A DNA stretch of 64,000 bases from Undaria pinnatifida (Eukaryota > Sar > Phaeophyceae > Laminariales > Alariaceae). The stretch is taken from contig JABAKD010000002.1 of NCBI GenBank assembly GCA_012845835.1, forward strand, positions 8,454,620 through 8,518,619, in the 5' to 3' direction. Positions within the stretch are counted from its first letter, which is position 1. The number at the start of each line of letters is the position of its first letter. This document shows, one piece after another, positions 8,071-62,480 of the stretch. The translations under genes were made by a program, and so were the position numbers. A model generated the notes under the pieces. It saw nothing but the letters and a program-made list of their open reading frames with translations. It did no database searches and was not told the origin of the DNA.

Positions 8071-8851
8071 TCACCCCCCTCTGTATTCGCTGCAAGCCCA
8101 TCTTAGCTAAGGATGGTTTTGTAGCGGTCATCGGGAGGATGACAATTTTAAGCAACAGGGTGTCGATTTATCGGATCGAGACACAGCAGCTGTTATATGC
8201 GTGCATCCACTCCTTATAACTGACGTGTTTAGCAAACACGGGTGTGAAACACCGGGCCAGCGAAGATGTTTACATTTTCGAGCTTGCATGCTGACAGCGT
8301 GTACTGGAGTTGTATGGGGTTTCCAAATATTATCTCAACGCACGTATTCCGTGTGGCCACACGTACTGGTGCGCCCCTCGTGGTTGCTGTTCTGGGAACC
8401 ACAGGCAGCGAAATTGTTTAGTGATTTCTCTTTTGTGGGCGGGTCCGCCTAGATATTTTCACTCGGAGTCAGCTCAGTTGATCTAGGTGCATCAACGTGT
8501 GACTTCGTTTTAGGTGGGGTGGAGTCGCGTGAAGCTCCTTTCCCCTGTGTGTTTAGTGTTCGAACAATTTTGTTTGTGGCTAGACGGTGGTGTTGCTGTT
8601 TTGTCCCGTTTGGAACGGAGTGCCGGGCACGGGCGTGAATTGTCACGCTTCTTACAGCCTCTCTCCGTTGGGTACAACAATTTTCTTAACGTCTCCTTGC
8701 CCCCGGCTATTCCCACCGGAATGCCGGGTAGAGTGCCCGTCAGATCATGGAAGACACGAGTGTGTACTGCCATGCCTGCTGGTGCTACTCTCATCGCCGT
8801 TGTTGACTCTTGTGCTTACAGCTGAGTCAACTGTGTTAGCCAGCTTGTTCG

Positions 8852-9352
8852 TTATTCGGTTACGCCGCGGAGCATCTGAGAATCTATTTTGCGCTGTCTC
8901 AGTTCGTGCTCGTCCCTGCCTACTATACGCTTCCGTTTCCCGAGAGAAGGGAGGGGGGGCGGAGCAGGTGAGGTGATCGCGAGTTGCAAACCCTTTTGGG
9001 CTCGGTATGCGGCGATCAATTCGTGACATTGGGGTATTTCGTCCGCGCGATACTCGAGGTCGGATTCAGGGCCGTAACCTCGGAGTCTTAGGCGGTACTT
9101 GTAGTTGTGGGGGCTTGGTCTGCCAGGTCCCCTTTTATGATCTACTACCCTGTCTACGAAGTAGAACTCAATTTTGGGTTGAGCCGCGTCTGGATGGTCC
9201 AACTCGGGCAGGGGAATGGGCTTCCCTAAAAACAATTCCGCCAGCTTCTCAAATTGAGGTGCGGGTGGTGTTTCCCGTTGATGGTAGGGCTTTATATGGG
9301 CTAGGTGGACTGACACTTCTCGGGTGTCGTTCGTTAGTCGTACTCGATACAC
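8852..9352 (-). pseudogene. C-terminal pol remnant with chromodomain-like segment (Ty3/gypsy fossil)
   Basis: A frame of about 166 residues inside the LTR element. The first part has VHLAHIKPYH, typical of the end of Ty3/gypsy integrase. Residues about 67-120 resemble a chromodomain: FYFVDRVVDHKRG, then YKYRLRLRGYG and EYRADEIP, with aromatic and acidic positions of the fold. Chromodomains in this position guide integration in chromoviruses. It belongs to a broken element and is not a host gene. Confidence 0.75.
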
Positions 9353-9473
9353 CGCTGGTGATAATTGTGAGCAGACGACATACGGTCCTCGCCATGGTAA
9401 TAGCAGCTTTTGGTTAGGCCCATCCGAATCCTGGTACGGTCTGTACCTGTCGTCATGTATTCGTACTCGTGGG

Positions 9474-9496
9474 TTCGAATCCCACGGTGGTCACCA
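9474..9496 (-). other. Primer-binding site of the Ty3/gypsy relic
   Basis: On the plus strand this reads ttcgaatcccacggtggtcacca, split here as ttcgaatcccac and ggtggtcacca, the 3' end of a tRNA with CCA. The complete T-arm stem is present (gtggg/cccac around ttcgaat). In the element orientation it is the complement and lies just inside the 5' LTR. A tRNA-Leu or -Ser primer is possible but not proven. Confidence 0.75.
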
Positions 9497-9498
9497 CT

Positions 9499-9929
9499 AT
9501 GGAACCTGGTCTCTCACGGGGTCCCGGAGTCGAAGTGGAGAGGGTGGTCCCGGAGGTCTGGTACTCGTCGCGGATGGTCGGCAGTCGGAGCGGAGAGGTC
9601 GTCGCAGAGCTGAAGTCGAAGCGGAGAGGGCGTCGCGGTGCTGAGGTCCCTTGACGATCGTTCTCAACAGCGAACGCGACTGATAACCTTTCTTTCTTAT
9701 ATGTAGCAAGGAGATGCTAAGCCAGAGCTAGAGTGACGGTGGGCATATGCCCTTCGTCATGCGGCGGGATCATCTTTCGGTGGCTGACCTTCCGGGGACG
9801 GGTCAACGCCGTCTATGACGGGTGACGCCGTTCGCGACCTGGGATCGTGTATTGCCTGACCGGTGACGTGTCCTCTCGCGCATGCGTGTACGCGATCTAC
9901 GATAGGTATCTACGACCCTGTCTTCCACA
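9499..9929 (-). repeat. 5' LTR of the Ty3/gypsy relic
   Basis: This 431-bp repeat is nearly identical to 7643-8070. In element orientation it starts TGTGGAAG and ends GGTTCCA(T). It is followed by the primer-binding site on the inner side and the cggat target duplication on the outer side. Confidence 0.85.
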
Positions 9930-37828: not shown

Positions 37829-40800
37829 ATGGTGGGCATGCTGACGTTCAGTTCCTCCCTCGCCATATGCTTAGCCATCGGGAACGCTTTCTTATTTAGA
37901 GCACCTAACGTCGCCCCGTTGAAATCGGCTCGGGAAAACCAGGCTGAGGTCATCGCGCCCCTGGGGGCTGCCGGTAAAGGACGGGGCACCGGTGGTGCCC
38001 TAGCCCGGCTTAGCGACAACGGCGATATGGAAGTCGAACAGCATCTGCCCCGGGTACCTGCGGCAGGGTGCCACCGGGGGTGGGGCAGCCGAGTCATCTG
38101 CCCCCATCTCCACGCATCCAAAGGGGTAGAGGTGAGAGCCTGCAGTATCTTCAAAGTGGACAGTTCACCTTTCGCAAGGCAAATACGTACCGGTATGTAT
38201 GACCTTAGTTGTACCGGTTGGGCAATGCCTGTTGCCGCGGTAGCGCCGGTAAAACCGCTTGGCACGGATGGAATTAACCTATGGCGGCGGTGTGCGAAGG
38301 CGTGCCGGTTGAGTGGCAGAGCCGTACCAGGTAGTGTCTTGGCTGGCACATGCCGGCACTACAACTGCTGTAGTCCTACTGTTGCGGTCGACAGTCTAGG
38401 GTACCACTCTGTCCATGAATTCAAAGACCGTTTGGTAATAGTAACAACTATAAACAGTCCTTACGATTCCGGACAAAACAGATCGGAAATTGCGTACCCG
38501 CTGAATCCCAAGATACCACAGAAAGAAACAGGTAGGTGCCCTCGAATCAGAGTAGTATGTCTAGCAGGTCTATAAGGTAAAATGGGAGCATCAGCGTTTC
38601 CAATCACGCCAAACGCAATAATCTTGACGGCAGCCGTTGCTCCATCCCCTGCTGTTATTTTGTCTCCCAAAACCTGCACTCTGCGCCATGATCCTCACGT
38701 ACCAAGCCGGACATCATCCAGGACGGCAACACCACGATCCCGATCGCCGGAGGGGTGGGAGGGGTCGATGGAGAGGATCCGGGCGTGGATGAAGGGCTGG
38801 ATACGGTTCTGTCAACTCAAGAGGAAGGTGATGACAGTGCGCACGGAGGACCCGGGCGTGGATGAAGGGCTGGACACGGTTCTGTCAACTCAAGAGGAAG
38901 GTGATGACAGTGTGCACGGTGAGAGAGCCGAGCCTGTGTTTTGCTGCCTGCCCGGGGGTGCATGCCGATCGAAATACCTACTACAGTCAGTGCCCCCTCC
39001 CCTGATCGTACTGTCCCGCACCTGGTGCTTGCGTACGTACTGCAACGTTCGGACCGTACTTTACGCACTTGATGTGAACGTGCTGTGAAATAAAAGATTC
39101 TGCAACCTCACGAAATATTCTCCGACACCTCGACACAAGCATGTCCGACGTTACACATGTTCCTAGCCACATTTACCGTAATGCAGTATTAATATTGCGT
39201 GTATTCGGTCACAGCTCCGTGGGCTATTGCTATGGTGAGCTTACATTGCAGTACGTATGATACGTAACCGCACTTGATACGGGCTTGATTCACGGCTGTT
39301 GTGGGCTATCGACTACCACACAAGTTACGATATATACGCGCTGCACTTGGTGAGAGGTTCAGCGTTGACCTTGTGGTCTTCCGTTTACGGAGGTTGCGCT
39401 GTTTCTCAATGTCGCGCCGAGAACAACAGTTTTCCAACCCTCGACCCGTCGAAATGCGACGCAAATGCAAACACTCGCGCCTTGAACCTGTCGTATTGGA
39501 GCGTCCAAGTCCATAGATTCGGTATCTTATGCGATGAACGTGGTGGCTCTAGCCGGATAGTTTTCTCAGTAGTAGATTATTAGTCTGGTTGCTAAGCCGG
39601 GGGTGGACTCTGTTGTTCTCACTTTGTCTTCTTTAGCATCCCGAGAGTCGCGTCTGTTGATAGAGCAGTGCTCCTCGCACATGAATCCTATTGTCGACGA
39701 TCACTGGATGTGAACACACGGCGCAGGGCGAGTATCGCGCAAACACCCGAGTCAGAGGTGTTCGTCCACGTGACACACTCATGAGAGATACACAGCAGTA
39801 TTAGAGCACGTTGGGACAGAGTCCCGCAGTAATGGGTTGGCCCAGCAGATCGAGGAGAAAGAGTGGCAACATTCTTCAGCGGCCCAAGCAATCCGTTATA
39901 CCCTGAAATATCCTTGTATCCATGCACCTTCGGAAACATCGGGGATTCACCCAGGATATCCTTTGGTATACTTCTCAAGATCCGCATAGCCTTCTACCTG
40001 GTAATCCCCGGGGATGCACGAATGATGCTTCCTGGCGACTACAGCGCGCACGCAAGTATAACTCGATTCTCAGAAACTCTCCCTAGTTTCACTGAATCTA
40101 CCGCGCCAATCGAGACTCTCTTAACCCATTGGGGCAAAATGGTGGTGCACTCTTTGTAGGTGGTAGTGTAAGCTGGTGCTGGTGGCGGTTGAGCTACATG
40201 TCTGTATGATGAAGGTAAAGAGGAAGGTACAGGAGGGATAAAGAAGAGTAAAATGTGCAGTCACAATCGGCCTCAATCAACACGGCACAATACGTGCTCT
40301 ACGTCTAGATATATCCTACGAACAGTTCTACCGACCGACCCGCAGCAACAACGTTCCTTGATGCTTGCTGGATGAGCAGCTACTCCGCGCTATTGTAATG
40401 GTTTGTGTAATACCGTCGCATATTCACAATCCTTCTTCGTACGATGTGCTACAGTACGTCAATGAAATACATGGGTCAACCGCGTAATGGTGGCTGATAT
40501 TAATTTTGATCTTCGATTGGTCTCCATGACTACATTGCGTGTTGTGCTGCAGTCGCTACTGAAGATCGAGCAAATACTAATAAACGGTTGCTGATTGTTT
40601 GTTTGCACTATGTATCCATATCGCATTTTCCCGGCGAACTACAAGTACGCATGCATGATAATAACGGCGAGTTAGCTGGCATACTTTGGCCGCACGTCTA
40701 CTACGCATCATAGTCCATGTATGTGGTTTGTAGAGCCAGAAGAACAGGCACCGTTCGCCTTCTTTCGATCATGGTCGAGTCGACCTTCAAACCGGCACTC

Positions 40801-42350
40801 ACTTATCATCCACCAGTACTTGTATTGAGTGTTTTTTTTCCCTGTTTCTTGCACTCGCCGGTGTTTACGCGTGATCTGCAACTCGTTGCAGGTACTAAGG
40901 AAGACTCTGACCTCCTCACCGACGTCGACATCGACACCCGGAACCAGACGCAACTTTCCCAGGAAGACGGTTTGGACGCCGTCGATGACGAGAATCTTCG
41001 CCCAAACACCAATCACTGCTACCGACGAGGAAACGCGGGGCCGAACAATACCGGATAATGAGGTAGCGGACGTCGTCGGACCAATGCTAGACAAAAGCGG
41101 TGACAACGTCTTCGACACGGACCGCCCTTCTGATCTTGTCGACGAAAGTGTAATGGACGAGATCTTCCTAAAAATATTCGACAACTTGATCATTCAAGAT
41201 GGGGACGATTCTCCGTTGTCGTTCACGCTGGAGGAGGTCCTCTATGGGAAAGAGTCATCCAAGCCATCCAAGCCCATGGCTATCAACGATCCCCTTGACG
41301 ACCTCATAAAGTCCGTAATGTTGAACGACTTGGTTGGGGGGGCGACGGCATCCGAGGAGCTGATGCTCGATTATGCCGTGCACGTCCTGATTCGGTCCGT
41401 GCTAAAGGGCGACATTGGAAGTGAGAGACCGTCTTGGAACCGGTTGCTCGAGAATGACCTGGACGGTGTCATGTTGCACAAGATACACCGTGTCCTCTTC
41501 GGGCGGGTGGGGCTCGCCCTCGTGGATGCCGAAACCTTCTTGTACAGCATGTAGGTGACGACGCCACACGATACCGTTTTCGGGCCGACGGCAATCAAGG
41601 CCGTGAAATCGTTCACCAACAACGCCGACAACAGCGAGGTGGTGGTGCAGAACTACGTCCGGGCGGTGTCTACGGTCTACGATAAACTCAAAGATATGCG
41701 CGATTACACCATCGACGACAAGGAGTGCCGGTTCGACCTCGCTGGCGCCAACGTCTTCGACGAGCTGAGCCTCCGGCCGTTCGTTTTCCTGATATTGGAC
41801 GATCGGATTGACGACGAAGTCATGGGGTCCATGCCGCACGGCATCGATGGAAGCTTTTTCGAAGAGATGCAACGACCCGACACCACCCCCGATGTTGTAG
41901 GTGACGGGATTCGACTCGGGTCGTTTGGGCCCATTTTTTCTGTTGAGGCGGTTAACGACGTGAAGCCGCCCATGCTTCCCCACACCTGTTCTGACGGCGA
42001 GACGTCGGTGATTCTTTAGAAAGCGGTGTACGACCTGGTTATGTCCGTTGTGGAGGGCGCCATGGCCAGGGGGGCAATCTCTGACATGGTGCTTGACGAC
42101 GGCATGGACGGCTTGATGTGGAACAAGCTGTACCATGCCATCTCCGTCTCCGGGCGGGCACCATCGGAGCCGTTGTTTTGACCTCGGAGATGCCTTGGAC
42201 GTTGTATCGACTTTGTTGCGGCACAATACCTTCTTCGGGCCGGCCGTATCGAAAGCCATCGCTTCATTAGCTGAGAACGCTGACAGCAACGAGGTGGTGG
42301 TGAAGGACTACGTCCAGGCCGTTTCTAAACAGTACGATAACCTTCGAGAG
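37829..42350 (+). pseudogene. Decayed paralogue of the three-exon acidic repeat gene
   Basis: This locus has the same order and orientation of parts as the intact gene, but on the plus strand. Exon 1 is 37829-38131, exactly 303 bp, with leader MVGMLTFSSSLAICLAIGNA then FLFRAP, ending HASKGVE at a GTGAGAG donor. Exon 2 is 38707-38918, and exon 3 runs from 40892 to about 42350 after a gttgcag acceptor. The second intron keeps phase 1. Exon 2 carries a 73-bp tandem duplication (38781 against 38854), which is not a multiple of three and breaks the frame. Without it the exon would be 139 bp, in phase with the 145-bp homologue. Exon 3 has stops at about 41552, 42017 and 42179 and frame changes near 41.0 and 42.2 kb. 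Introns are shorter here (575 and 1973 bp). Transcription or a partial product cannot be excluded, but a full-length protein looks impossible. Confidence 0.6.
38781..38925 (+). repeat. 73-bp tandem duplication in exon 2 of the decayed paralogue
   Basis: The stretch gggcgtggatgaagggctgg starts at 38781 and again at 38854. The copies are almost identical, so it is recent. The length is not a multiple of three. Confidence 0.85.
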
Positions 42351-42729
42351 GTGATACATCGAACAGCACCGAAAGAAGCAGAGCCGACGTCATTCATACA
42401 AGACTCACCCCACACTCATGACGTTATTCTGCCAGATATAACTATTATTCGAGTATCACATGTATCGAAGACAAGGCAAGTCATTTTTTCCATCTTTGGA
42501 CTGTCGTGCTAACAAAATAAAACTTGCTATCGCTTTGGATTAAAATATGACGGAGGTACTATATTCTAACCGTGAAAATTGCTTCATGCTTTACCCCCAC
42601 CTCTTCTTTTCCAACCCTGATTTCGACATTTTTGGGGTAACCACAACACGCGGCACAACACCAACGACGACCACCAGGCTAAGGGCTGCAACTGCATCCC
42701 CAACAAGCATGCGCCTGTTGTTCGAAGGG

Positions 42730-44104: not shown

Positions 44105-45830
44105 TTGCGCAGGCCTAACGCGCTCCGGCCGATCAGCAGTCAGCCGATGGGGTTGGGGTTACCACACCGTGAGGGACGGCGTCGGCCCGGGGGATCACTG
44201 TTTTCGTCCGGCCGTTGCTGGAATTGTACATGTATGGAAGGATTTTCTGATCCGGGGGGGTGACATTGCATAGTCCCCGAGTGCGGTGGAACCCCGATAT
44301 TGTCCCGAGGGGCAACTCTCTCCGCATGCTGGCTCCGTTAGCCCCAGCCAAGCAGCAATCAGCGGGTGGCGGTGGGGTTTCCACAGCATGCGCGGCGGTA
44401 TCGATCCGGGGGATCACCGCTTTCGTCCACGAGTTGGCGGTTGTTAAAGTATATGGAGCGATTTATGATCCGGGGACAGAGTTCTATCGTCCCCGGGTGC
44501 GGAGACGCCTCGACGAAGTCCACAGAGGCAACTCGCAGCGCGTTGGCTCTATGATCCTCAGCCAAACAGCAATCAGTGGATGGGGGTAGGGTTTCCACAC
44601 CGTACAGGGTGGTATCGACCCGAGGTATCATCGTTTACGTCACCAGGTTGTTGGAGTTATAGATGTACGGAAGAATTCATGATCCGGGGTTGGAAATCTA
44701 TCCTCCCCGGGTGCGGCTGGATTTCAATGTTGGCCAAGGGGGCGAATCTCTCCGCGCGCTGGCTCTTTGAGCCCCAGCCAATCAGCGATCGGCGGGTGGC
44801 GGTGGGGTTTCCACAGCATGCGCGGCGGTATCGATCCGGGGGATCACCGTTTTCGTCCACGAGTTGGCGGTTGTTCAAGTATATGAAGCGATTTATGATC
44901 CAGGGACGGGATATTATCGTCCCCGGGTGCGGAGACACCTCGACGAAGTCCACAGGGACTTCTCGCAGCGCGTTGGCTCTATGATCCTCAGCCAAACAGC
45001 AATCAGTGGATGGGGGTAGGGTTTCCACAGCGTACAGGGGTGTATCGACCCGAGGTACCATCGTTTACGTCACCAGATTGTTGCAGTTATAGATGTACGG
45101 AAGAGTTCATGATCCGGGGTTGGAAACCTATCCTACCCGGGTGCGGCTGGATTTCAATGTTGGCCAAGGGGGCGACTCTCTCCGCGGGCTGGCTCTATGA
45201 GCCCCAGCCAATCAGCGATCACGCGATGGGGGTGGAATTTCCGCACCGTGCGGGGTGCTGTCGACTCGGAAAATCACCGTTAAAGTTTCCGGGGTATTGG
45301 AATTGTAGAGTTATAGAAGTATTGACTGATTCTACGATAGCTCCTCCCCCAAACAAGCGATTCAGTTTAACGAACGTTTCATGGCTGATCGACACGAGGC
45401 AATATGCTATGGAAAAATAATCTTCATATATTTTCTTGTTTGCAACTTTGGACAATCGAACGGTGACCTCGGGGTGGCAGGGAGCACCGTATTTCAGGAC
45501 ATACGACAGGGAGCTGGTTTCAAAACCAGTGATTTCGTTCAGGGTTAATCGTGGGGGGGGTGCCTTGGAACGGCTCGATTTCTGATCGACGGATGGACCT
45601 TATCGTCCCCGGGCGCAGTGGGAACTCAGCGTTGTCCCGATGGATAACTCGCCCCGCTCGCTGGATCAATGATTCCCAGCCAATCAGCGATCAGCCGATG
45701 CAGGTGGGATTTCCACACCGTGCTGGGCGGTATCCACCCGATAGACAACTGTTTTCGTCCCCGGGCTGTTGGAGTTGTAGGTTTATGGACTAATTTCCGA
45801 TCTTGAGGGTGAATTTCCCGGGCGAGCACC
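44105..45830 (+). repeat. Satellite of ~215-bp monomers with ~430-bp dimeric higher-order period
   Basis: Monomers begin near 44137, 44355, 44572, 44787, 45001 and 45217, with a further diverged one near 45687 after an unrelated interruption (about 45340-45545). Neighbouring monomers differ, but alternate ones (44355-44786 against 44787-45217) are nearly identical, the mark of a higher-order dimer. Each monomer holds gccaatcagc or a variant, ggtttccaca, a gtatcgacccg-like step and tgatccgggg. Frames stay open on both strands because the dimer length is close to a multiple of three; this is not evidence of genes. Confidence 0.75.
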
Positions 45831-47785: not shown

Positions 47786-47937
47786 TGATGAACCCAAAAC
47801 AACTGGTCTCTTTGTATGTGCATCGGTGCCCGCCCGGCTCATAATCCTCCGGTCGAAACACGAACGTTGGATTCAACGTGCTAAAGCGGCATCAAAGGTA
47901 TGCTGTATGTACGGCGGGAAGGATCTGTGATTTGCGT

Positions 47938-49452
47938 GTACGGATAATTCACAAGGCCGCCAAGCATAAAACCTCATTCAAGCTGAGGAGGGCAGCGAAA
48001 GTGACAACCCCAAAAAAGAAGAAAACATCACGGTAGACAGGAGAAAACGCCTCCACAACCACCGATGGCAACACCGACACTAAGCTAGGGTTACGTTGAG
48101 GGCTGGCTGTTTGGTCTCTACGCCCCCTTCCGTCTCGCCCTCCTCCATCATACCTTCATCTTATTCCAGCCCACTTCCGAAGGTCGGGAACACAGACGAC
48201 TGCAGTACTTAGAGTCGACCGTGCTTAGTAGCTGTACGGGTAGCGGTTGTGGCTGCTTGTCTGGTGGTCGTCGTTGGTGTTAGCCCGCATGTTGCGGTGA
48301 TGTCGGGACAGACAAACGTACGGTTGGCGAAGCAGAGCGGGGCGGAAGCGCCAATATTTGAGGGAAATGCGATGTTTGCCGTTAGAATGACCATACTGCT
48401 GATTATGCTTGTATTATAGGATACTGGTTCGAAGGTTATTGGGTCGATCAGGGGTTTTCAATGGCAGGTTGGCTGTTTGACGTTTGAAAATGCGTGATAA
48501 TGGATGCGAGGCCTGTTCTCATGGCGTGCTTCCCACTAGATACTCTCGTTCTGCGAATAGGAGACGGTATGTAATTTGCACGTGGTCTATGCAATGCATT
48601 TCCAAGTGCATGAGCATCGGTTCTTCCGCGGCTGCGTACGATCGTGTCGACGCCTCGTGGCATAAAACTCACATGCATTTAACGGCAACCCGTTGTGTAC
48701 GCACCTCATTCCCCTCCTGCAACAGAAGCTTGGAAACCAGCCAAGCCGGTGAACGTCAAAAGCTAGCCGAAAACGGCGACAAGGCGACGCATGAAACCTC
48801 TCGTCGTTTCGCGTCTACAGTAAGTACATCAGTACGACCTTGCTATGCTGGTCATCCGTCATCATTCAAGGTGATTCTGGTAGCCGCCCATACACATACA
48901 GCTGGCGGCAAGACTCCAAAGTACCTCGATCATATTGAACGCAATCGATTATACCATTTCTTGTGTTGACACGACGTTGAATGAATGGTGCAACATATTA
49001 CTCTGTTAGAGATTACTGTAAAGCTCGGATACAGGGCTGGAGACAGCACATTCAATGCACAGGGGAGAAGGGCAACAAGGGAGCTTGGGGCCTCACCGAT
49101 GCGTGTCGAGGATAACCCAACATGGGGAGTGGTCCAACTTTCAAGTCCTGCTTAACGGAGAGAAAGCGAGGTCTTCGTGATCGGAGAGACGACACCTATC
49201 GGTAGAATTCCCTGCGATATATTGTGCGCTGTTAAAATTATTGGTGCATCCAGCCATAGAAAACAAAATATCCTGTATGTGGAGGGAGTTCGTTGTGAAT
49301 TGTGTCGGCTCTGTTTACTCCGTTGTTGTTCAACACCGCACCTCTTTGAACTCATCATAAAGCTCCGCCATGGCTCGGGCGTAGGCATTGACTAGTAGCT
49401 CGCTGTCCTCGACGGTCTTGGTCAGTGATTCGACGGTCGTGGTCAGTGAGAC
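47938..49452. repeat. Tandem duplication ~1.5 kb, unit 1
   Basis: This unit aligns with 49468-50890 over its length, with offset falling from 1530 to 1447 bp. Landmarks are tacggataattcac, the gtgcttagtagctg region, ctcatggcgtgcttcccact and the gene tail at 49330-49452. The unit contains the 3' flank of the acidic repeat gene and its last ~40 codons. No other gene is recognised inside. Confidence 0.65.
49330..49452 (-). pseudogene. C-terminal tail fragment of the acidic repeat gene
   Basis: The minus strand reads about 38 codons nearly identical to the end of the intact gene: SLTKTVED, a LLVxAY step, then ELYDEFKEV and a stop. Homology ends abruptly upstream of this tail. The fragment sits at the edge of a ~1.5-kb tandem duplication (47.94-49.45 kb against 49.47-50.89 kb) and is the left behind end of a second gene copy. 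It lacks leader, modules and start, so it is a relic. Confidence 0.6.
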
Positions 49453-49467
49453 ACCTGTGACCTGAGA

Positions 49468-50890
49468 GTACGGATAATCCACATGGTCGTTAAGCGTAAA
49501 ACCTCATTGGAACTGAGGAGGACAGTACAAGTGATAAAATATGCAATGCATCAGGCTAGACAGGCGCAAAAGCCTCCGCAACCGCCAATGGCAACAGCGA
49601 TACTAAACTAAGGTTGAATTGACGGATGGCCGTTTGTCTCTACCCCCCTATTCGTCTCACCCCCCTCCGTCATATTCTCACCCTATTACAGCCCGCTTCT
49701 GGAGTTCAAGAGAACACACGACTACCGTACTTAGTGACGACCGTGCTTAGTAGCTGTCCGGGTAGCGGTTGCGGCTCCTCGTCTGGTGGTCGCCGTTGGT
49801 GTTAGCCCCCATGTTGTCGTGATGTCGAGACAACCAAAGGTACGGTTGGTAAAGCAGAGCGGGGCGAGAAGCGTGAACAGTTGAGAGAAATGCGATGTTC
49901 TTGGTTAGAGTTGACCATACTGTTGATTGTTCTTGTATCGTAGGATATTGTTTCGATGGTCGTTTGGTGGATCAGAGAGTTCCAAAGGTAGGTTGGCTGT
50001 TGGACTGGTGGGAATTCGTGATGGTGGATGTGCTGCCTGTTCTCATGGCGTGCTTCCCACTCGATTCTTTACATCTGCGAATGGGAGGAGGGATGCAACT
50101 TACGTGGTCCATGTAATGTACTCCCGAGTGTATGTGCCTCAGGACAGCCTCGGCTGCGTACGATCGTGTCGACGGCTTGTGGGATAATACACACATATCT
50201 AAAATGACAAGACGTTTTGTACGCACCCCATTCCGCTACTGCTGCAAATGCACTACGTTTAAACCAACCAGTTGGTGAACATCGAGTACTACGCGAGAAC
50301 GGCGACAACGCGACGCGTGAGCGCCCTCGTAATTTCTCGTTTACAATGCAGTAGAAAGACGTTGATGTGTACACCCGTCCATGATTGAGGTGGTCTTAAT
50401 CACCATACATACCCATACAGCCGGCGACGAGAACCCAAAGTGGCGCGATCATGTGAATAGCAACCAATTGAATCCTTGCTTGTATTTATACCACGTTGGA
50501 CCAATGGTGCAACATACCACACTGTTGCAAACGATAACTCGAAAAAATCGCCGACGCGTGTCGAAGACTATGTAAAGCGGGGACCTGTCCAAATTTCAAA
50601 CCACAATGTACGGAGAGGAAGCGAGGACAGCGTGGCAGGAGAGACGGCAACTACCGGTTCACGTCCCCGCGATATATTTTGGTACTAGTAATAGTGCATA
50701 TAATTACTAAGAAAATCGCTTGAATGTGGTGGGAGTCTACTGTGAATTGTGTCGGCTCCGCTTACTCCGTTGTTGTTTAATACCCCACCTCTTTGAACTC
50801 ATCGTAAAGCTCAGCCACCGCCCTGACGTAGGCATGAACTAGAAGCTCGCGATCCTCAACCGTCTTGGTCAGTGATTCGACGGCATTGAA
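49468..50890. repeat. Tandem duplication ~1.5 kb, unit 2 (3' flank of the intact gene)
   Basis: Homologous to unit 1. It ends in the last exon of the intact gene. The segment near 49740-49810, like 48225-48290 in unit 1, is also similar on the opposite strand to 42650-42700 downstream of the decayed paralogue (accaacgacgaccaccag), so the 3' flank belongs to the ancestral block. Confidence 0.65.
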
Positions 50891-52248
50891 TGCCGCCGGC
50901 CCAAAAAACGCGTAGTGCAGCAAGGACGTTAATACATCGTCAAAGACAGCTTCGAGATTCGCGGGCTCGACTTCCGCACGCCTGGAGACGGAGATGGCGT
51001 CGTGCAGTTTGACCCACAGCTCATCGTCCGTGTCCTCGTCGATCATCAGATCATCGGAGTCAGCCCCCTCGGTGAACGCGTCGTCCAGCGCCGACCACAC
51101 CAGGACTTTAACTGCCCTCGATGCCGCCCCGCCGGACATGGCGTCGCGCAGCGCGGGGGAGATCCCGTCGTCGACGCGATCTTGGAAATCGATGGGGCCG
51201 AAAGGCCACAGACGGAGATCTTCGACCACTCCGTCGTCGTCGAGGTTGAGCAGCCACTCTCCGTCGAAATCGCGGATGTCTTCGCTATCCTGCGGCGTGA
51301 ACCCCATGAAGTCGTTGGTTACGCCATCAGCTACACCATCAATGGTGAGCTCGAGCGGGAGATCGCCGCTCAAAGCATTGTCTTCGATTGTTCGATTGCG
51401 CTCTTCTCTGAACTTGTCGTACAGCTCAGACACCGTCTGGATGTAGTCCTCCACCACCAGGCCACGGACGCCGGCGTTTTCGGTCAACGACGACACGACC
51501 TTCGACGCCACCGGCCCGAAGAAAAGGTTGTGCAGCATGCTTGTTAATACGAAGTCTAACACCTCTTCGCGATCAGCGCGCTCGGATGCCGCGTTTCCGG
51601 AGATGACGCTGTTCAGCTTGAACCACATCAAATTGTCCATGGCATCGTCAAGCATCCGGTCATCGGCCTCCCCCACGGCGAGAGCGTCGGTCAACACGAA
51701 CCGAATTAGGTCGTGGACGGCATCATCGAGGACCATGGCCTTTGACGCCACCCCTTCAAACTCACCGTCGCTCAGCATGTACGGCATATAGCCGTCCACG
51801 GGGTCGTGCGCTAGCTCAGACGCCATTTCATCGTCGACAGCAGAGCGAGGAATCACGGGGCCGAACGGCCCGAGGCGGATGCTGTCGACTACCCCGTCAG
51901 CGCCGGCGAGGTCTAACGGCTGCTCCCCACCGAACACCTTGCCGTCGTTGCTATTGAGCATTGAAGTTACCTCGTGGTGGATTGCCTCTATCACATCTGC
52001 CGGCCTCCCAACGTCGGAGTCAATCTCGTTCAGGAAATCGTCCAACATGGTGCGGTCGAAAGGTTCGAGGCCCATCTCGTCGAAGACAGAGGCGGCGGCA
52101 ACGTCAAGAAGCCAGTCCTCGTCGAAGTCAATGGCGTCAGTCATTTCTTCAAGGCTCTCGTCACTGTCGGCGTCCGAATAGTCTTCTTGGGACATCTCCT
52201 GCTGGTCCAGGTGCTCGAGGTTGATGTCTGTGGCGATGTCGGCATCGT
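50777..52248 (-). CDS. Exon 3: main acidic repeat region
   Basis: This exon is 1472 bp, opening with two bases that complete the split codon and ending at a TAA (50777-50779). The frame is open for about 490 codons, by far the longest host-type frame in the window. The short module occurs three times; its core has LD/LL, then a [VF][DE]xx[LIM] step, L-x-PFGP and VDDE/VDDG. The long module occurs twice; shared positions include Lxx[LM]LHxxFFGPxA, xxSLT and a closing ELYDxF. Its spacing suggests amphipathic helices. Composition is very rich in Asp, Glu, Leu and Val with almost no Cys. An internal Met at 52195 could serve as a start if the upstream exons were not used. The repeats point to growth by internal duplication. 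No known family is recognised. Confidence 0.72.
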
Positions 52249-55200
52249 CTTCAACAGCGGAAAATATGGATCACAAATGAACAGCGCGGAGTGGAAAATA
52301 AAAGGAGAAAGCATTCAACACAGTTACTAGATGTGTCTTGAAACTCAATGCCGACTTGGGGGTCTAGATTGTCCAGCCGCAAATCAAACGTGATTATAGG
52401 TCTGACCGTGCTAGACATTACAAGCATTTTCGGGACACGCTGCCATGGACCGTAATATGTGTGCAGTGGGGACTGTGGTGCACCAAGATACCTAGGAAAC
52501 GACCACTAACGTGGAGTACAACTAAAGACGCTGAAGCATAACATTAAGCGATATGTGATGGATCCACCTATGCATTGCTTTAAAGGTCACGTTGCACGGG
52601 AACTGGAGGTAGTTATGCTACGGAATTACCCGTACAGGAACGTTACTAGAAGAAAAATATTCGTCAGTAATCGAGACCGTTTGCAACAACATTAAAGAGT
52701 GGTTCAGCATCCCCTAGCAAGCACCAAGTAGCGCCGCCGTGGGTTGGTAAGTACAAGGACCCAAGGGTACATCTAGATTGCCGTATAGAGATCCATGATA
52801 CCCACAAGTTTAACTCGTCCTGCTCCCTCTCGTTATTTTCTCTTTTGCCTCAATGTCTCGCAACGGTCACTTTGCGGTATGAAACCTTGCTTTCATTTCC
52901 CTAACACCAATCAGGTTATTTAACCACCACCAGCGCAAGTTTATTCTACCACCTACCAAGAGATGACCAATACCCCAATAGGTTTATGAGAACCACGATT
53001 AGCGTGGTGCGCACATCAGGGCCATCAGGGAGACGTTTGTTTGTAAATATTTATATTTGCCATGCCTGCGGACCTCGGCTGCGAGGAGAATTGCTGCATC
53101 AACAAGCGGGATTGTCGGAAGGCTAAAGAGGACAAGGTGGTAACCACAGACCCAAATGCGGCTCAGCAACAACGTCGGTCATCTACTAATGCGACAACTA
53201 CACGGCTAGAACTAGCACGTGCATCGCATACGAAATCGCGCTTGCGTCAGTTGATCGACTCGTCAACGGTTTGTCATACGAACGTTTTTGTTCACACTTC
53301 ATTTCGATAGGTCACGAGTTGCAACACTGCCGTTCACGGGGAGAAGTTTGAAATACTCATTATATCTGTAGGTCTACGAAGGCCACGAAGTCGCGGCCGA
53401 CGCGCGAACCAAGTGCATCATGTACGTATCGTAACATTTTGGCCTTTGAAAACCAGCGAAGACATGGCTGAAGCTTGCATCAAGAGGGGCAAGTGAATAT
53501 CATACAATAAGGTGCGATATCAAAAGTTAACGGCGTTGTGACTAAAAGCATGCACTGAAAAGGTGCAAAGTTGCACACGTTCGTGGCAAGTACGGCATGG
53601 AGTAATCCGCGAAATTGCGGAATATGCAAGGTTTCAACACGCTCGTACTACAGTAAATGTAGCACAGTAAAGTCTGCAAGGCTCAGGCATGCACAAACGC
53701 GATAAGTGCGGTAAACGCGCAAGAGAAATGCCCCGCAACGTGGGGGACACCATGACTAACATAACAACGGCTACGGCAAAGGATCCCCCGCGGTCGGACG
53801 AGAAGGACGAGCACGCCTTATTACGACTAGAACGCACGAGTCAATGCTTTCCGCAACGAATCCGTCCTTATCATTTCACAGTATGCTCATGGGAAAGAAG
53901 GAGCTCAATGCGACAATTGGCAGCATCATGTTCACGATGCAGCGCAGCATTACCAACCGGTATCCTTTGCCTTCTTACTATCCACGGACGGGGGGGGTCA
54001 CTACAGTGCAACAGTTTCACGGTGCCACGGGGCCAATAAATCGGAGGATAAGCGGCTTGCTATGCGCTCAAGGAAAATCGCGACACCGTCAGCACCACCA
54101 TACGTCAGGATGGTGACGCGGAACTGGCCCAGATCAAGATGAAAGCAGGCCAAGAGGAAGATTACTCCACAGTCATCCCACGGTATGGGTTGCACTTTTC
54201 GGGCCAGGCGTTTCTGACCGGTTGAGTATGAAATTTTTACGAGCATAATATTTACTTTAGGACTAGCGCATAGAAATGTTGATCGCGTTGCACAAGAGAA
54301 TATCTTCCAAGTCATGTTTCGGGTGATGTTGATGATGTTGAGCTCCTCACGTTAGTAGTTCAGAAAACTCTTAGAATCTGCTACACCCCTAGCGTGGGAT
54401 GAAACTTCAGGTACATCATAGAGGAAGCACAAGGCCGTCTTTACGATATGGGGGTTACATTTTCCCGAAGGGAGCGTCGCACTTATCAGAACGGTTCGCG
54501 ACTCTTGTGCCTACGAGGAAGGATCCCAGACGACTGAATAGCCGTTCGTGGGGGCAAAAGGTGGGAAGTATTTCCCACAACCTCTTCAGAAGGTATGAGA
54601 GTACCGGAACTGGCTCTTTTGAGGAAAGCGACGACGCATGTTATGATAGAGGTGACATCACCTAGTTTTCATGAGGTTCCACGCTTTTGAGGAGCTCTGT
54701 ACATAATCTACATCATCCAAGCACTGATGACTTGGAGAACAAGAAAACTGTGCCAGATGAGCAATCATTCAAATCAACCCCATGGCCTAGGTACACAACG
54801 AAATACCTTCCAAACTTCCTGTAAAATGAAATTCCGACGTTTTAATGGATAGTATTACGTACTACGTTTACTAGGTTAACGAGCCCCGCCGTTTAAAAGT
54901 GTTTTACCCATACAGAGGTGTACCTTAAAACTCCTTCTATCGTGGTCTTGGTCCGACGACAACCGTACATAGAGAGGAATCTAAAGCAGGGCTACGTTGA
55001 CAGTCCAGCAATGTTTTCTTCAGCATAAACTACATATGCCACGACTGCTGCATCCTATCGGCCTCATCCATCGCGACGTCGTCATCACCACCCCCATCAA
55101 GGTATCAAAGAACGCTGACAATAACGCCTCGAGCAGATCAAGATACGGATCAGGCATCTCCGGCAGTGTCGTCACCATCGTTATCGTTATCGCCATCGTC

Positions 55201-57488
55201 ATCGTCTCCTGGAGGCATCGACTACCACAGCAGCGACTTCTACGATACAGCAGCGACTTCTACGATACAGCAATGACTGCTACCGCAGAGACTAGTGTGC
55301 GACAGCCGCGACTACAGCAACACCAATGTTAGACGCAGCTACAGCAGTACATTAATTTGGTCAGGTACTTCATCTGCTCTATTTGTAGCAGGCAACAGAG
55401 ACACATACGTAGAAACATCGAGATAAAACCAGCAGTGTGTGCATGGTACGGTGCCGTATGATGGAGATGTACCTGACTGTTATGAACTACCAGGTACTAT
55501 TAATACATCACTTTAGAAGGTTGATATTTGATACCTTTTCCACAAAAATAGGACTGACTCGCTGACGTTGACAATAATGAAAATGCATCGCGACTGACAA
55601 TATATTAACCCTAGGATATTATCAAACGCACAACAGATAGTAATGCCCAAGCACACGTGACACGCAATATGCAAGATCGACCTATTCCTTGGTCGGAAAG
55701 CCCCATCGATTAGCAGTACTTCAGCCGGAAGGTGCTGCTCCTAGTCGTAGCACGCGTCAATAATCAAGACTAGGAGAGGCTTGTCATTTCCACAGGAGGC
55801 GGTGGGGCGGCGGTAGTGTAGTCTCAACGATTCAGGTCTGCGGGCTTCCTAAGGCACGCGTTATAGGCATACTGGAATCTCTCACCGTGTGAGCCGTCGT
55901 CATCTTCTTGTCGAGCCGCCGACGCCATCTCCACCTCGTCATCCTCAGGCTCTGACGTCAGGTCAGAGTCCTCGTCGCCCATCTCACCAACGATCGAGAT
56001 AGTGGTGTTGCCATCACCGGCGATGTCCGGCTTGGTAAGGGAGGGACGTGGTGCAGGGTGCCGGGTGTGGCAAGGCAGAGCAGCAGCAGTGCATGGGGTA
56101 GTCGTTGTTGTCAGAACAAGGGTAATGATGAGACGATGATGTCTCTCTGGGACATTTGACCTGCGTGGAGCAACTTTTGTGTCCACGCATTTCGAGCAGC
56201 ATGTATATCGCACATACACCGGAGATTTGGCAATGCGCTGCCAACGTACGAAATATAATACGAAACGCCGATCACATACACAAGCCAACAAGCCAGACAA
56301 CTTGAGGAGAGAAGATGAAGAAAAACCAAAGAGAAAGTGCGATAGGTCTCGCACGATACATGTTTCTTTTCATCCTACAGGTACAGCAACACAGCTGCAG
56401 CATACTGCAGAACGAAGAGATGAAGGAATGGCTACCAATCGTATTATGTATCACATCTGGTGCTGTCTTGGTCTGTGCATCAGCGCCAAGTATCACGTGT
56501 CAAGTCTGGTTTTAAGTCTGCTGTTTTCATGAGGCGCCTAGACCCAACGTACAATTTGGTACTACTGTGTGGGCACTGTACCGTAATCATGCGGGTCATC
56601 GCACATATCGGAGTGACCGCGCCTATCGGGGTCATCGCGCCCCTGTGCGACATTTTTCAAGTTAGGAAATTTTTAAATAATTTTCCCGCACAGTTATCGG
56701 AGTCATCGCACAGGGGTGCCATGACTCCGACATTGGTGCTACCTTCGGGCTTGAGGTTGCATGCTGTCGTGTGTGGCCCCGGAATTGGGAATCTGGCATA
56801 TTTTGTTCGTCTCGCGGCTTGTAATCGGGGCTCACCGCTCTGTGTCGCAGGTGCGGACAAATAAACCAAGTTTTCTCTTGAATTGTTACTTGCAAACGGC
56901 GAACGCACTCAAAAGACACACACGCACAAACACCAAGTAAATGCAGATGCAACCTACCGTACCTACTGCTACGCAACGAAAAAGAGCCTAGGAACACTAG
57001 CCGGACGGCAAACCCAATACCTACATCCTCGCGGTTTTCTTTTCTCCTCGCACACAACACCACAACCGAACTCGAATGCTACTCTCACCAGGCGTTGCAC
57101 CACAGCAAGGCAAGAAATTGGTATGTGTGCGTACTGGTCGAAGCTATCTACCACGGGCCGCCTACTGGTAATTGTAAGGGTGTATTAGCAGTACCGTGGG
57201 GTGTGTGATTTCTCCCGTATCACACATATCGGAGTTATCGCACAGGGGTGTGCGTTCACATTACAGCATTTGAGTGGGTTTTTTGATTGGTCAGAGTCGC
57301 ATATAGTCTACAGGAGTTATCGCACGGGGGTGTGCGCCAAAAGAGAATGTCTATCAGTTTTAATCATTTTCCGCACAGGTATCGGATTCATCGCACATAT
57401 AGGATTCATCGCACCCCTGTGTGATAAAAATCCAAGTTGGGACTAAAAATCGATCGCACATATGTGCGACGACCCGCATGATTACGGG

Positions 57489-57548
<60 letters not shown>

Positions 57549-58489
57549 GCTGTTTTCATGAGGCGCCTAGACCCAACGTACTATTTGGTACTGTGGGCAC
57601 TGTAGTTGCTACTGCAAATAGACCCAATGGACCGCTACTCGTAGCAACGTGGAAGACAAGGACGCTCATGCACGCTACTGGTATCGCATCCACGCCATCA
57701 CGTTCACGCTATGACATGCACGCTACTGTATCATGCTGTCGAATCTATATTCAAGGGTGCTTTGTTTCTACGGCAGCAACTACCAGTATAGACTATTGCT
57801 ACATACAACGAGCAGTATACGTACCTGATACCTATTGTCCACATGCACCACGGTACGGTTTACCGCCCACGTTTTCGGGACAAGCTACTTGCAGTTGTTA
57901 TTGGCTGCGATGACATCTCAATATACGACAAATTGTGCTTGAGGAGGTACCAGGTACTATCGCAGCAACGACTGTTACATGCTGGTACGGTAGTACTGCC
58001 TGGTATACGGTACGTACATACCGTACGATTTGGCTCGCACGTTTTTGTTTTTTCATTTGGTCCAGGATTTAATAACTGATGGAATATAATACTCATAGCT
58101 GAACGTTACCTACATTTATTTTCATTCTATTTACAAAACAGGGAGGTCCTGGGTTTGCTTGGTTTTATTTTATATTACAGGCTCACCTGCAGCCCCCGAG
58201 ACGCGTGTAGAGGGAAGGTGCCCCGGCGGCACGACGTGGTGTAGCCCTCTGCCAAAGGCACCCGGGGCAGAGGTTTCCCTGCTCTCACAGCTTCGACACC
58301 GTCGATCTGGCTAAGCTCACCGAGGCCAAGCGTGCTACCAGCCTTTGGGGGCGCCAGAGTGTTGGCGGGACTTTTCTTGGTCCATGCCGACTCCGGCGCG
58401 AGGGGTACCTTGGGCGCCCGGAACACGAACGCGTTGGTCGTGGCCAGGCAAAGGGCGAGAGAGGCAGACGAGCGCAGGGTGCCCGGCAT
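50777..58489 (-). CDS. Three-exon gene for a large acidic repeat protein with a signal/plastid-type leader (unrecognised family)
   Basis: Spliced model, exons 58489-58187, 56030-55886 and 52248-50777 on the minus strand, giving about 639 residues. The parts join in frame: exon 1 ends in phase 0 at a GTGAGC donor, exon 2 starts after a taccaag acceptor and ends in phase 1 at GTGAGAG, and exon 3 resumes in phase 1 after ttgaag. A paralogue at 37829-42350 keeps the same borders and phases, which is the main support. Residues 1-20 are a hydrophobic signal peptide, followed by Phe at the cleavage site and an S/P/A/K-rich stretch typical of heterokont plastid transit peptides. Residues 102-639 are strongly acidic. 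They contain three short modules (about 189-225, 253-291, 473-511) and two long modules (about 322-434, 527-639). No enzyme motif or membrane segment is seen after the leader. Introns are about 2.2 and 3.6 kb and hold repeats. Function is unknown; plastid targeting is inferred from the leader only. Confidence 0.62.
52249..55885 (-). other. Intron 2 of the acidic repeat gene (3.6 kb)
   Basis: The borders are the GTGAGAG donor at 55885 and the ttgaag acceptor at 52250. It holds repeat E, an ATC-rich run at 55170-55205 and a 22-bp tandem pair at 55225-55270. Frames at 53844-54116 and 54399-54665 are open but unrecognised. The paralogue's intron is 1.97 kb and lacks these insertions. Confidence 0.5.
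54258..54405 (+). repeat. Dispersed repeat E, copy 2 (in intron 2 of the acidic gene)
   Basis: It has the same landmarks as 31998-32135. Just upstream, 54190-54245 (gcgtttctgaccggttgag) resembles 23755-23800 (acgtttctgaccgattgag). Confidence 0.6.
55886..56030 (-). CDS. Exon 2: short acidic exon
   Basis: This exon is 145 bp, 48 codons plus one base. It starts PDIAGDGNTTISIVG and becomes Asp/Glu-rich, ending EDDDGSH before a GTGAGAG donor. The paralogous exon at 38707-38918 starts PDIIQDGNTTIPIAG after the same taccaag acceptor and ends at the same donor sequence. Conservation stops at these borders, as expected for an exon. The open frame runs on upstream and downstream here, but the other paralogue does not keep it open. 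Confidence 0.6.
56581..57487. mobile_element. Candidate non-autonomous DNA/foldback element with 28-bp terminal inverted repeats
   Basis: Ends are inverted: ccgtaatcatgcgggtcatc plus gcacatat at 56581-56608 against the complement at 57460-57487, matching 27 of 28. Inside are several direct and inverted copies of tcgcacaggggtg and tatcggagttatcgcac. The element lies in intron 1 of the acidic repeat gene. It is flanked by a ~60-bp direct repeat (56519-56580 and 57548-57604), the second separated by an (ACT)n run. No transposase is seen and no simple target duplication was identified. Confidence 0.5.
57489..57548 (+). repeat. (ACT)n microsatellite
   Basis: About 20 copies of a trinucleotide between the foldback element and the second flanking direct repeat. 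Confidence 0.95.
58187..58489 (-). CDS. Exon 1: signal peptide plus transit-like leader
   Basis: This exon has 101 codons. The start ATG at 58489 was chosen because the 303-bp exon then matches the paralogous exon at 37829-38131 exactly in length and aligns almost without gaps from the first Met. The frame stays open for 139 codons upstream, but that part includes a CAG/CAA microsatellite that looks like 5' UTR. The leader starts MPGTLRSSASLALCLATTNA, then FVFRAP. The conserved end of the exon has LPRVP and HASRG before the GTGAGC donor. The h-region and the Phe at +1 fit an ASAFAP-type plastid signal of secondary algae. A secreted or vacuolar protein is the alternative. Confidence 0.65.
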
Positions 58490-60169: not shown

Positions 60170-62480
60170 GCACGAAGTAGCTCTCGGAAATGGGATCGCA
60201 CATCAATATGCTTGCTCCGCGCAGAACTGAGAGGGTTCTCCGCCAGTGCTATGGCCCCCTGATTATCTTCAAAAACTCGGACACATGATCCGGTTAGCTG
60301 TGGACAAATAAATGAAAGATAATACTACCCGCGTAAACAGAGCCTCCTTCACCCCTTCACCCAGGGCTACATACTCTGCTTCTGCTGTAGACAACGTAAC
60401 GCACCTCTGCGTGCTACTTGCCTAACTGACGGCAGCACCCCCAAGGTAATTACCGTCCCCGACACCGAGCGCCTGCCATTCGACTTATCAGCGTAGTCAG
60501 CATCGCTATATGCAGTCAGATCCAACCCCGAACCCCTTACAAAAGTCAAACCCACACCCCTTGTCCCGTGGAGGTATGCCATGATCTTCAGAACTGCTCT
60601 CCAGTGCCTGTCGGTGGGGTTGTGAGAATGGCGCGCCACAGCACGCACCGCGTTCGAGATGTCTGGCCGCGACATGGTCGACAGCCACATCATACTACCC
60701 ACAGCCTCCCTGTACGGCCAGTCGCCCCTTGGTTCGCCCTCCTCTCTTGGACCTAGTTCAACGCCAGGGGTCGCGGGGATGTAAGAGGACGAGTTCACAC
60801 CAAAACGGTTCAGCATGAATTCAACCAAAGCCTTCTGCCTGATCTCCAACGTGCCCAATTCCCAGTGACGCTTGAAAGCACCGCCAGTATACCAAGTTAA
60901 CTCGCCTAGGCTGGGAAACTTCGCATTTAATGTGGCATGGAAGTCTCTGCAAGCCTCGTCTGATCCTGCAATCCCAATTTCATCTACACGAACGGCCATA
61001 ATCAGTTCTACCTTGCCATCCACAACCATGCGAAAAACACAAGGATCAGTCCTACTCTGCTCCATGCCGAATTCTACCACGGTCTCTACCAGTAGTCCGG
61101 CCCACTGCCGTGCACTCTGCTTCAGACCATATAGTGATCTGTTGAGGCGAACAATATTTCCTGACATGTCACCAAACCCATCGGGTAGTTCCATGTATAT
61201 CTCGGCGTCGAGTTTCGCACGGACTAAAGATTGTGCTACGTCTAAATGGAAAATCTTCAGACCTTGCTCATTTGCAACGGCCGCCAGAATATTGGTTGAC
61301 GCTGACGATGGGGTTGGTGCAAACGTTTGAAAGTGATCTACGTCTTGCACCTGGCTAAAGCCCATAGCCACAAGCCTTGCTCGCGTCTTCGCTATGATAC
61401 CATCCTTGTCAGTCTCGTACGAGAATACCAATTTTGCACCTACAGGTTTCTGCCCTAGCGGCGAAGTCGCAGCTTCGTATGTACCGGTCGGTTTGTGACC
61501 GTCCAACTCAGCCTTCATAGCCTTACGCCACGCCGCCTTGTATTGGGAACGCTCTGCATCTGCTACGAATTTCGGGGGTGGTTTCATATCTTCTGGAAAA
61601 TCACTCGGTATGCACACGTTTGACTCCCCTGTATTTTCTTCCGCAGCAGGTCCTCCGGCCATCATGGCCATTACATTATCCGTCGTCCAGGATGTATTTG
61701 CCAGTATACTCCCAAACTCCGTCCACTTTTGCAGTGCCGCAGAAATCGCGTCCGCGATAACACACTGACGTTGAGCAGATTCATCCTGCAGGCGTTGGCT
61801 CTGACCCTGGGTCCGGCCCATTACTATCGGGGGTAGCCGTCCCCAGCTACTGAGCTCGTGAGCTTCCCTACCCGACCGGATCGCGGGGGTACCTTCGCCG
61901 TTCCCTTTGCCGGTGCCGGAGGCTGCTGATGCATCTGAGCCGCTTTCGGTCCTCCCTGCCGGGACCGAGGAGGCGTTCACCGCGCCCCCTTGAGACGAAT
62001 CCATCGTCTCGACTGTTTCGGCCCTCCCTGCCGGAACCGAGGAGGCGTCCACCGCGCCCCCTTGAGACGAATCTATCGTCTCGACTGTTTCGGCCCTCCC
62101 TGCCGGAACCGAGGAGGCGTCTACCGCGCCCCCTTGAGACGAGTCCATCGTTTCGGCTGTTCCGTCGCCAAGCATCACGGGCGACAGGTGCCTCCTGCGA
62201 GCGCTCTTGCAAGCACGCGTGCAGATCACCACCATCGCCGGCAGCAAGTGTCTCCTGTGAGCACTTCCGCAAGAACGAGTGCAGATCAAACCCCCACGTT
62301 GCGTCGAGGTCGGTCAGGCGAGCCAGACCTTCGTCCTGCTCATCCATCACCCCCCCCCCCCCCACCTCCATCTGACGTGCTCTTGTCGTCGGCCTCGGAC
62401 CCCCCCTCTTCCTGAGACAGGGAGTCATGCATCTGGGAAGGTACAGGTGGTGAAGGCGACACGCGTTGCCAGGTGACATG
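60170..62480 (-). mobile_element. Ty1/copia retrotransposon relic (pol region)
   Basis: The minus strand holds Ty1/copia pol. In order: a low-complexity N-terminal part with a 24-residue repeat unit (DSSQGGAVDASSVPAGR core) three times at about 61990-62170; a reverse transcriptase with FHLDVAQSL, a YMELPDGF step and SLYGLKQSARQW; and an RNase H with AYSDADYADKSNGRRSVSG. The final RNase H part extends to about 60180. Gag, protease and integrase are not recognisable, and no LTR pair was found, so the element is partial and broken by a few changes. Age is unclear without LTRs. Its copia identity is firm. Confidence 0.8.

Follow-up and report, generated by a model that had tools for sequence, protein, structure and literature searches.

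A multi-copy nuclear gene family of a brown alga encodes acidic repeat proteins with a probable plastid-targeting leader

Complex bodies arose independently in the brown algae, a group with many genes that have no recognised relatives. Among the repeat scaffolds of complex plastids, the diatom pyrenoid protein PYCO1 combines repeats with a plastid address; the product of the gene analyzed here is likened to it by description only, and we know of no conspicuous pyrenoids in kelps. With regard to the leader, the closest described systems are nucleus-encoded plastid proteins with bipartite ASAFAP presequences, for example the LHC/FCP antenna proteins of the same genome, in which Ala-Phe likewise stands at the cleavage position and a basic segment poor in acidic residues comes next. 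Passages of two papers (PMC4329603, PMC2567999) state that Phe at +1 marks plastid import and is required for it, and those of PMC4329603 say the same of the positively charged transit segment. Compared with such presequences, the transit-like segment found here is long (69–81 residues, up to where exon 1 ends) and lies on one exon with the signal peptide; unlike LHC/FCP, the mature part is no antenna protein and matches none of the families tested. It is the family that has no match, the address label is ordinary, and we do not propose a new kind of system.

The gene lies on the minus strand of the window, that is, the whole 64,000-nucleotide stretch of DNA analyzed here. The spliced model (58489–58187, 56030–55886 and 52248–50777) encodes 639 residues (640 codons with the stop) without an internal stop, with a computed pI of 4.05 and a mass of 69.5 kDa. 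Exon 1 (58187..58489, 101 codons) holds a signal-peptide-like stretch and a transit-peptide-like segment and ends in LHASRGLQ, followed by GTGAGC. Intron 1 (56031..58186, phase 0) precedes exon 2 (55886..56030), a 145-nt acidic linker that starts with PDIAGDGNTT and ends in SH(G). Intron 2 (52249..55885, phase 1) leads to exon 3 (50777..52248), which comprises the acidic repeat region and the stop codon. The open frame holding exon 3 has 497 codons, against a mean of 212 and a maximum of 289 for the longest frame when the 64-kb window was simulated 200 times with a first-order Markov model, and the GC content of exon 3 by codon position (0.35, 0.74, 0.67) is uneven, as in coding DNA. An intact three-exon gene of 639 residues had been claimed by the first-pass annotation, and the claim held: the spliced frame has no internal stop, both introns are GT...AG, and the layout recurs in paralogues. 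The exon 1 frame continues open farther upstream and has an in-frame Met there, so the start was placed at 58489 by comparison with the other leaders, and the window gene (copy A4) may have a longer N-terminus burying the leader. Upstream of exon 1, the E copies have an in-frame stop, and the A1 frame is shorter (137 vs. 276 codons).

A search of the genome with exon 3 gave 28 matches on two contigs. On sequence grounds, the window gene is a three-exon member of a multi-copy family: the same three-exon layout is complete in eight of the 13 copies examined (A1, A2, A4, B, D and the near-identical E1–E3). Homologues of exon 1 are present in A1, A2, B, C, D, E1–E3 and F, and exon 2 was located by homology in A1–A3, B, D, E1–E3 and the decayed copy L027; it was not recognised in C. 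Copy A3 is without exon 1, and exon 3 is broken in three copies (F, L027 and L030). The exon 3 sequences of B, C, D and E share 37–47% identity with A, and their long frames are still open. Donor 1 reads [CG]AG/GTGAG or GTAAG in 10/10 copies with the exon-1 end read, and donor 2 reads CACG/GTGAGAG in 8/10 copies with the exon-2 end read. In B and D, AG is missing where A and E have their exon-2 acceptor; an in-frame CAG is present 15 nt further downstream.

We suggest the following scheme for the gene and its product, which as a whole we hold to be fairly probable. The gene is one intact copy in a nuclear family that has been amplified and kept by selection, and the alga is photosynthetic, with antenna genes of the LHC/FCP type. 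From exon 1 would come a signal peptide of some 20 residues that brings the chain into the ER system. Once this is cut off before Phe-21, the basic transit segment would be exposed, and import into the red-derived plastid would follow. The mature product of about 540 residues would consist of a flexible, acidic linker, encoded by exon 2 and the first part of exon 3, followed by two repeats of about 117 residues, which are probably helical. Most probably it would be soluble in the stroma, a repeat protein built as a helix bundle and binding other proteins through its acidic surface, and it is a guess from composition that it acts there as a scaffold or assembly helper. The sequence favours no particular partner or activity.

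The leader was also claimed earlier to have Phe at a probable cleavage site, and this proved to be a feature of the family. In the window gene, the ASAFAP-like site A20-F21-V-F-R-A-P26 is located at 58412..58432 (minus strand), and the pattern [NS]AF[VL]xRAP occurs in 10/10 aligned leaders of five diverged lineages, counted as five because F groups with E. ASAFAP presequences are characterised by Phe (or W, Y, L) at +1 and small residues at −3 and −1 of the signal-peptide cleavage site. With this site placed by reading the aligned sequences, every leader has a small residue at −3, then Ala at −1 and Phe at +1, with R-A-P occupying +4 to +6, and a hydrophobic stretch precedes the Ala-Phe. Over the 40 residues that start at the site, all ten have 5–9 K/R vs. 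0–4 D/E. In the LHC/FCP control from the same genome, (S)AF was present in 8/8 exons read, out of 61 matching places; this control consists of close relatives and covers the Ala-Phe exon only. Plastid import of the product is likely from these features. A hydrophobic N-terminus by itself would also be compatible with a signal peptide of the ordinary kind, and the strong acidity of the mature part would suit a repeat protein that is secreted or placed in the cell wall or vacuole and could bind calcium or basic polymers. However, we regard secretion as unlikely, given that Phe at +1 and the basic, acid-poor segment are kept across the diverged lineages and that Ala-Phe is also found on the LHC/FCP exons. 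Furthermore, the residues of exon 1 past the site are net positive, opposite to the remaining protein, which fits a removable transit peptide. Each complete copy links a probable plastid label to an acidic repeat protein without a match in the libraries searched, so that its destination is clearer than its role.

The window protein has two repeats of about 117 residues each. Unit 1 (51395..51745, minus strand; residues 168–284 in the exon-3 row of alignment A1) and unit 2 (50780..51139, minus strand; residues 370–489 in the same row) were scored by an iterated repeat HMM with i-E values of 4.5e-54 and 8.8e-51, respectively, the sequence scored being itself part of the model. Self-alignment of the exon-3 frame (residues 106–289 vs. 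328–494) gave a score of 267, against 37 ± 6.6 and a maximum of 75 in 2000 shuffles. Together with the pI and the recurrence of the repeats in paralogues, this bears out the acidic protein of internal repeats proposed by the first-pass annotation. Exon 3 of ten proteins contains 82–118 D/E vs. 28–45 K/R. AlphaFold predicted mainly helices, repeats included, at low confidence (two models, pLDDT 30.5 and 53.6), which weakly suggests a helical fold of the repeats; Foldseek and VIA searches with these low-confidence models returned uninformative matches, none of them significant. It could be supposed that the product acts in the plastid not as a scaffold but as an acidic chaperone or ion-binding buffer, with the disordered acidic linker as the active part. 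Acidic residues are indeed abundant in exon 2 and early exon 3, and exon 3 of the A copies has zero cysteine and few basic residues. Nevertheless, the invariant columns in the exon 3 comparison fall mostly within the repeats and not in the linker, and we consider this a decidedly improbable account.

Searches of Pfam, NCBIfam, PHROGs, PDB, IMG/VR and GTDB genomes gave no convincing family match, in agreement with the earlier remark that the family could not be matched to a known one. The best values for the window protein only were E 0.011 in NCBIfam and E 0.028 in PHROGs, Pfam DUF7504 was matched at E 0.0029 by 1/16 single repeats, and all Pfam-A, NCBIfam and PHROG scores were under the cut-off wherever one exists. 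A likeness to Psb27 (PSII_Pbs27, PF13326) was seen on the three near-identical E copies, at E 0.0059–0.045 over about 50 residues. Taken with the plastid-type leader and the probably helical repeats, it could point to a tandem assembly factor of photosystem II in which each repeat is a four-helix domain diverged from a Psb27-like one. This is very unlikely: the best score is 17.3 bits against a Pfam cut-off of 25, the match is partial (profile positions 20–70 of 140), and at E ≤ 0.5 it appears in 3/10 exon-3 proteins, the E copies only, and in none of the other lineages. With single repeats as the query, the likeness drops to E 0.16 in 1/16, and no hydrophobic lumen-targeting segment was noticed by eye after the transit segment. 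As to a four-helix bundle, the model examined was of low confidence (pLDDT 53.6) and had no significant structural match.

Comparison of A4 with A1, A2 and A3 gave dN of 0.010, 0.014 and 0.007, dS of 0.086, 0.056 and 0.053 and intron-2 distances of 0.049, 0.044 and 0.039, respectively, dN being the lowest of the three in each pair. The dN/dS of the window gene vs. these three nearest copies is 0.11–0.25, which indicates purifying selection on exon 3 among the near-identical A copies; it reaches 0.42 in the remaining A pairs. The values are 0.44–0.87 among E1–E3, with few changes, and 0.45–0.69 between lineages, where dS is 0.78–1.06, so that constraint is modest or divergence fast. That the family consists of decaying duplicates with little or no translation, their frames open only through recency, would agree with the broken exon 3 of three copies and the loss of exon 1 from A3, but it is highly improbable in view of dN below both dS and intron divergence in A4 vs. 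A1–A3, and of the long open frames, with common splice sites wherever these were read, that B, C, D and E keep despite their age. A multi-copy, maintained and probably plastid-directed family without a recognisable domain is a testable candidate for lineage-specific plastid biology.

Similar leader exons were also found on C18 and C24, where a genome search with exon 3 detected no exon 3 relative; the leader may therefore be shuffled onto unrelated mature proteins. As a broader suggestion, which we rate as unlikely, the repeats would define a helical domain family of plastids that is new and perhaps confined to brown algae or close kin, with a portable address exon of about 100 residues that was shuffled in this way. 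If it is true that unrelated proteins carry the same leader exon, this offers a route to test the gain of a plastid address by exon shuffling. In comparisons with A4, B, D, E1, C and F, the score of the C18 leader was reached by 7, 257, 182, 2, 108 and 67 of 2000 shuffles, the piece tested having started late and thus having little power. For the C24 leader, the counts were 0, 1341, 1338, 56, 93 and 709, so that its likeness comes from A4 alone. Two leaders on C1 are certain, with counts of 3, 10, 0, 0, 0 and 0 (C1:6519809) and of zero in all six comparisons (C1:6354949). No exon 3 was found within 5 kb downstream at one locus each on C18 and C24. This says little, because exon 3 of the window gene starts 5.9 kb past exon 1, and none is seen either in the 5.5 and 4.8 kb downstream of the two C1 leaders that are certain. 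An exon-2-like stretch was seen by eye at L058.

The window also contains a sister gene, F (37829–42380, plus strand), which its sequence identifies as decayed. Its exon 1 (37829..38131) is open, with the leader MVGMLTF...GNAFLFRAPNV, and is followed by GTGAGAG. The probable exon 2 (38707..38845; PDIIQDGNTTIPIAGG...) has a 74-bp tandem duplication, and the GTGAG of donor 2 was not found at the expected place. The decayed exon 3 (40891..42380) has two in-frame stops and two frame changes. Downstream of the window gene, a C-terminal fragment of exon 3 (49339..49455, minus strand; 39 residues, 74% identical) lies within an old tandem duplication of about 1.5 kb. A similar fragment adjoins each of the four A copies.

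The three-exon gene on the minus strand of the window (exons 58489-58187, 56030-55886 and 52248-50777) was confirmed, and its support now goes beyond that of the first-pass annotation. The 639-residue spliced model proposed there holds: the three exons join without an internal stop, and the introns are of the GT-AG type, in phases 0 and 1. The frame of exon 3 runs for 497 codons, whereas none of 200 simulated windows gave a frame longer than 289. The internal repeats claimed for the protein were recovered with a score of 267; the highest score among 2000 shuffles was 75. The exon 1 frame stays open 5′ of 58489 and has an in-frame Met there; the start was set at 58489 because homologous leaders begin at this position or a few codons away. 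The E copies have an in-frame stop upstream of the leader start.

Exon 3 gave at least 28 matches in the genome (511 Mb, 68 contigs), every one on contig C26 or C1. For the family comparison, 11 stretches were fetched and 13 copies examined. The near-identical copies A1-A4 are all located on C26, where the window spans 8454620-8518619, A1-A3 being 97-98% identical to A4, the window gene. B, C and D lie at 6.34-6.49 Mb of C1, and the tandem trio E1-E3 at 16.39-16.41 Mb of the same contig. All three exons are present in eight copies (A1, A2, A4, B, D, E1, E2, E3). In copy C, exons 1 and 3 are present and no exon 2 was recognised. Exon 1 has been lost from A3, where similarity to the window stops within intron 1 (window 57952), and an exon 1 search of the genome found only three A-type leaders.

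Donor 1 reads [CG]AG|GTGAG or GTAAG in all 10 copies with the exon 1 end read, C and F (the decayed sister gene in the window) included. Eight of ten copies (A1-A4, B, E1-E3) have CACG|GTGAGAG at donor 2; copy D was read as far as CACG, with a consistent translation, and F has no donor 2. The exon 2 acceptor is AAG|CC in the A and E copies, while B and D have no AG at that position and carry an in-frame CAG 15 nt downstream. The splice sites thus agree among copies only 37-47% identical in exon 3 and therefore provide independent evidence for the junctions first proposed.

The 10 leaders, representing five diverged lineages (A to E, with F placed in E), align as M...hydrophobic...[NS]AF[VL]xRAP. 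The Phe claimed at the cleavage site was found at +1 in 10/10, with Ala at -1 and G, S or T at -3 in every leader; the 40 residues from the site onward contain 5-9 basic and 0-4 acidic residues. According to a passage of PMC4329603, plastid import in such algae requires the +1 Phe and a net positive transit peptide, and a part of PMC2567999 describes the motif as essential for import in Phaeodactylum. Judging by these leaders, the family carries what appears to be an ordinary plastid-type address. Among the inferred steps, plastid import by way of this two-part leader would have the best support; secretion of the acidic repeat protein is the less likely alternative.

The alga is photosynthetic, since 61 places in its genome match the LHC/FCP antenna proteins, each exon being counted separately. 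As a control, the upstream part of 8 of the 10 best matches was read, comprising the Ala-Phe exon, with the signal-peptide exons lying further upstream. All eight exons show (S)AFNGAAL...MKM followed by the antenna domain, which we take to be of the fucoxanthin-chlorophyll type; being close relatives, they amount to few independent cases.

An iterated repeat profile found two strong units of about 117 residues in all ten exon 3 proteins aligned, and a partial third in the C and E copies. The conserved positions are grouped in LMWxKL, LLHxAFFGPAASKAV and ELVVxDYVxAVSxLYDxFKEV. AlphaFold modelled the repeats as helices both for exon 3 (ten rows, pLDDT 30.5) and for a single repeat (sixteen rows, pLDDT 53.6), and fold searches with the single-repeat model gave no reliable match. 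Because the protein is acidic, probably helical and repeated, it would most likely serve inside the plastid as a stromal scaffold or assembly helper, with the repeats binding partners and the acidic linker acting as a flexible arm. An acidic buffer or chaperone would be a less likely role than such a scaffold or helper. A Psb27-like role is less likely too: the Pfam family Psb27 matched the E copies only (E 0.006-0.045), under the curated cut-off, and was absent from the other lineages.

Selection on exon 3 was estimated by NG86 and compared with intron 2 distance. For A4 against A1, A2 and A3, dN was 0.010, 0.014 and 0.007, dS 0.086, 0.056 and 0.053, and intron 2 distance 0.049, 0.044 and 0.039, respectively, so that nonsynonymous change is three- to sixfold under intron change. 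The remaining three A pairs gave dN/dS of 0.12, 0.33 and 0.42. Between lineages, dN/dS was 0.45-0.69 at dS 0.78-1.06, a rough figure suggesting modest constraint or fast divergence; the values for E1-E3 (0.44-0.87) come from 23-27 differences per pair, too few to weigh either way. A dying family could be read from the broken exon 3 of three copies (F, L027 and L030), but the family is real, amplified and selected, with an unmatched mature part. Present evidence does not make it a system of a categorically new kind.

More divergent leaders occur elsewhere: SDAFVVGAP (C1:6519809), GNAFVVIGP (C1:6354949), SKAFVTAP at seven places on C18, and GDGFVLQAP, with Gly replacing Ala (C24:6773603). The two on C1 clearly belong with the family leaders: of 12 comparisons, 10 had their score reached by 0/2000 shuffles and the remaining two by 3 and 10/2000. 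The likeness is weaker for C18 and C24. The genome search with exon 3 found no relative on C18 or C24, nor was one found within 5 kb downstream at one locus on each, a distance shorter than the exon spacing of the window gene. A portable leader, the same exon serving unrelated mature proteins, is a lead only, because the C18 and C24 likeness is weaker and an exon 3 spaced as in the window gene would lie beyond the 5 kb. The seven very similar SKAFVTAP exons cluster at C18:1282119-1399501, two of them on opposite strands (1313670, minus; 1315288, plus), and at one locus of this cluster (L056) an acidic open frame of 259 codons follows the leader exon.

The A copies form an array at C26:8350841-8506889 with a spacing of about 31-33 kb and one 63 kb gap, and F-type copies were found in it at 8350841 and 8495901. 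This layout suggests repeated segmental duplication. F itself (window 37829-42380, plus strand) is opposite to the window gene; its leader exon is open, and its exon 3 has two stops and two frame changes. At window 47925-50883, about 1.5 kb is duplicated in an old tandem pair (75% identical, 84% at the coding end) that spans the 3′ end of the window gene and the downstream flank, and a similar C-terminal fragment lies beside all four A copies.

The GC content of the window is 50.3% by base counts; the published Undaria pinnatifida assembly is given in a passage of PMC7058681 as 50.14% GC and 511.0 Mb. A tandem repeat with a period of about 0.43 kb (85% identical) occupies 44128-45281, and neither of two overlapping frames searched there matched a Pfam family. 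A 432-bp stretch occurs twice within 7642-9929 (98.6% identical, about 1.86 kb apart). Weak matches to an integrase C-terminal domain and a chromodomain, both under the cut-off, suggest a retroelement remnant at 8855-9490 (minus strand). A Copia-type reverse transcriptase frame lies at 60370-62313 (minus strand; Pfam RVT_2, E 6e-35) and contains a 72-bp tandem repeat at 61944-62161.
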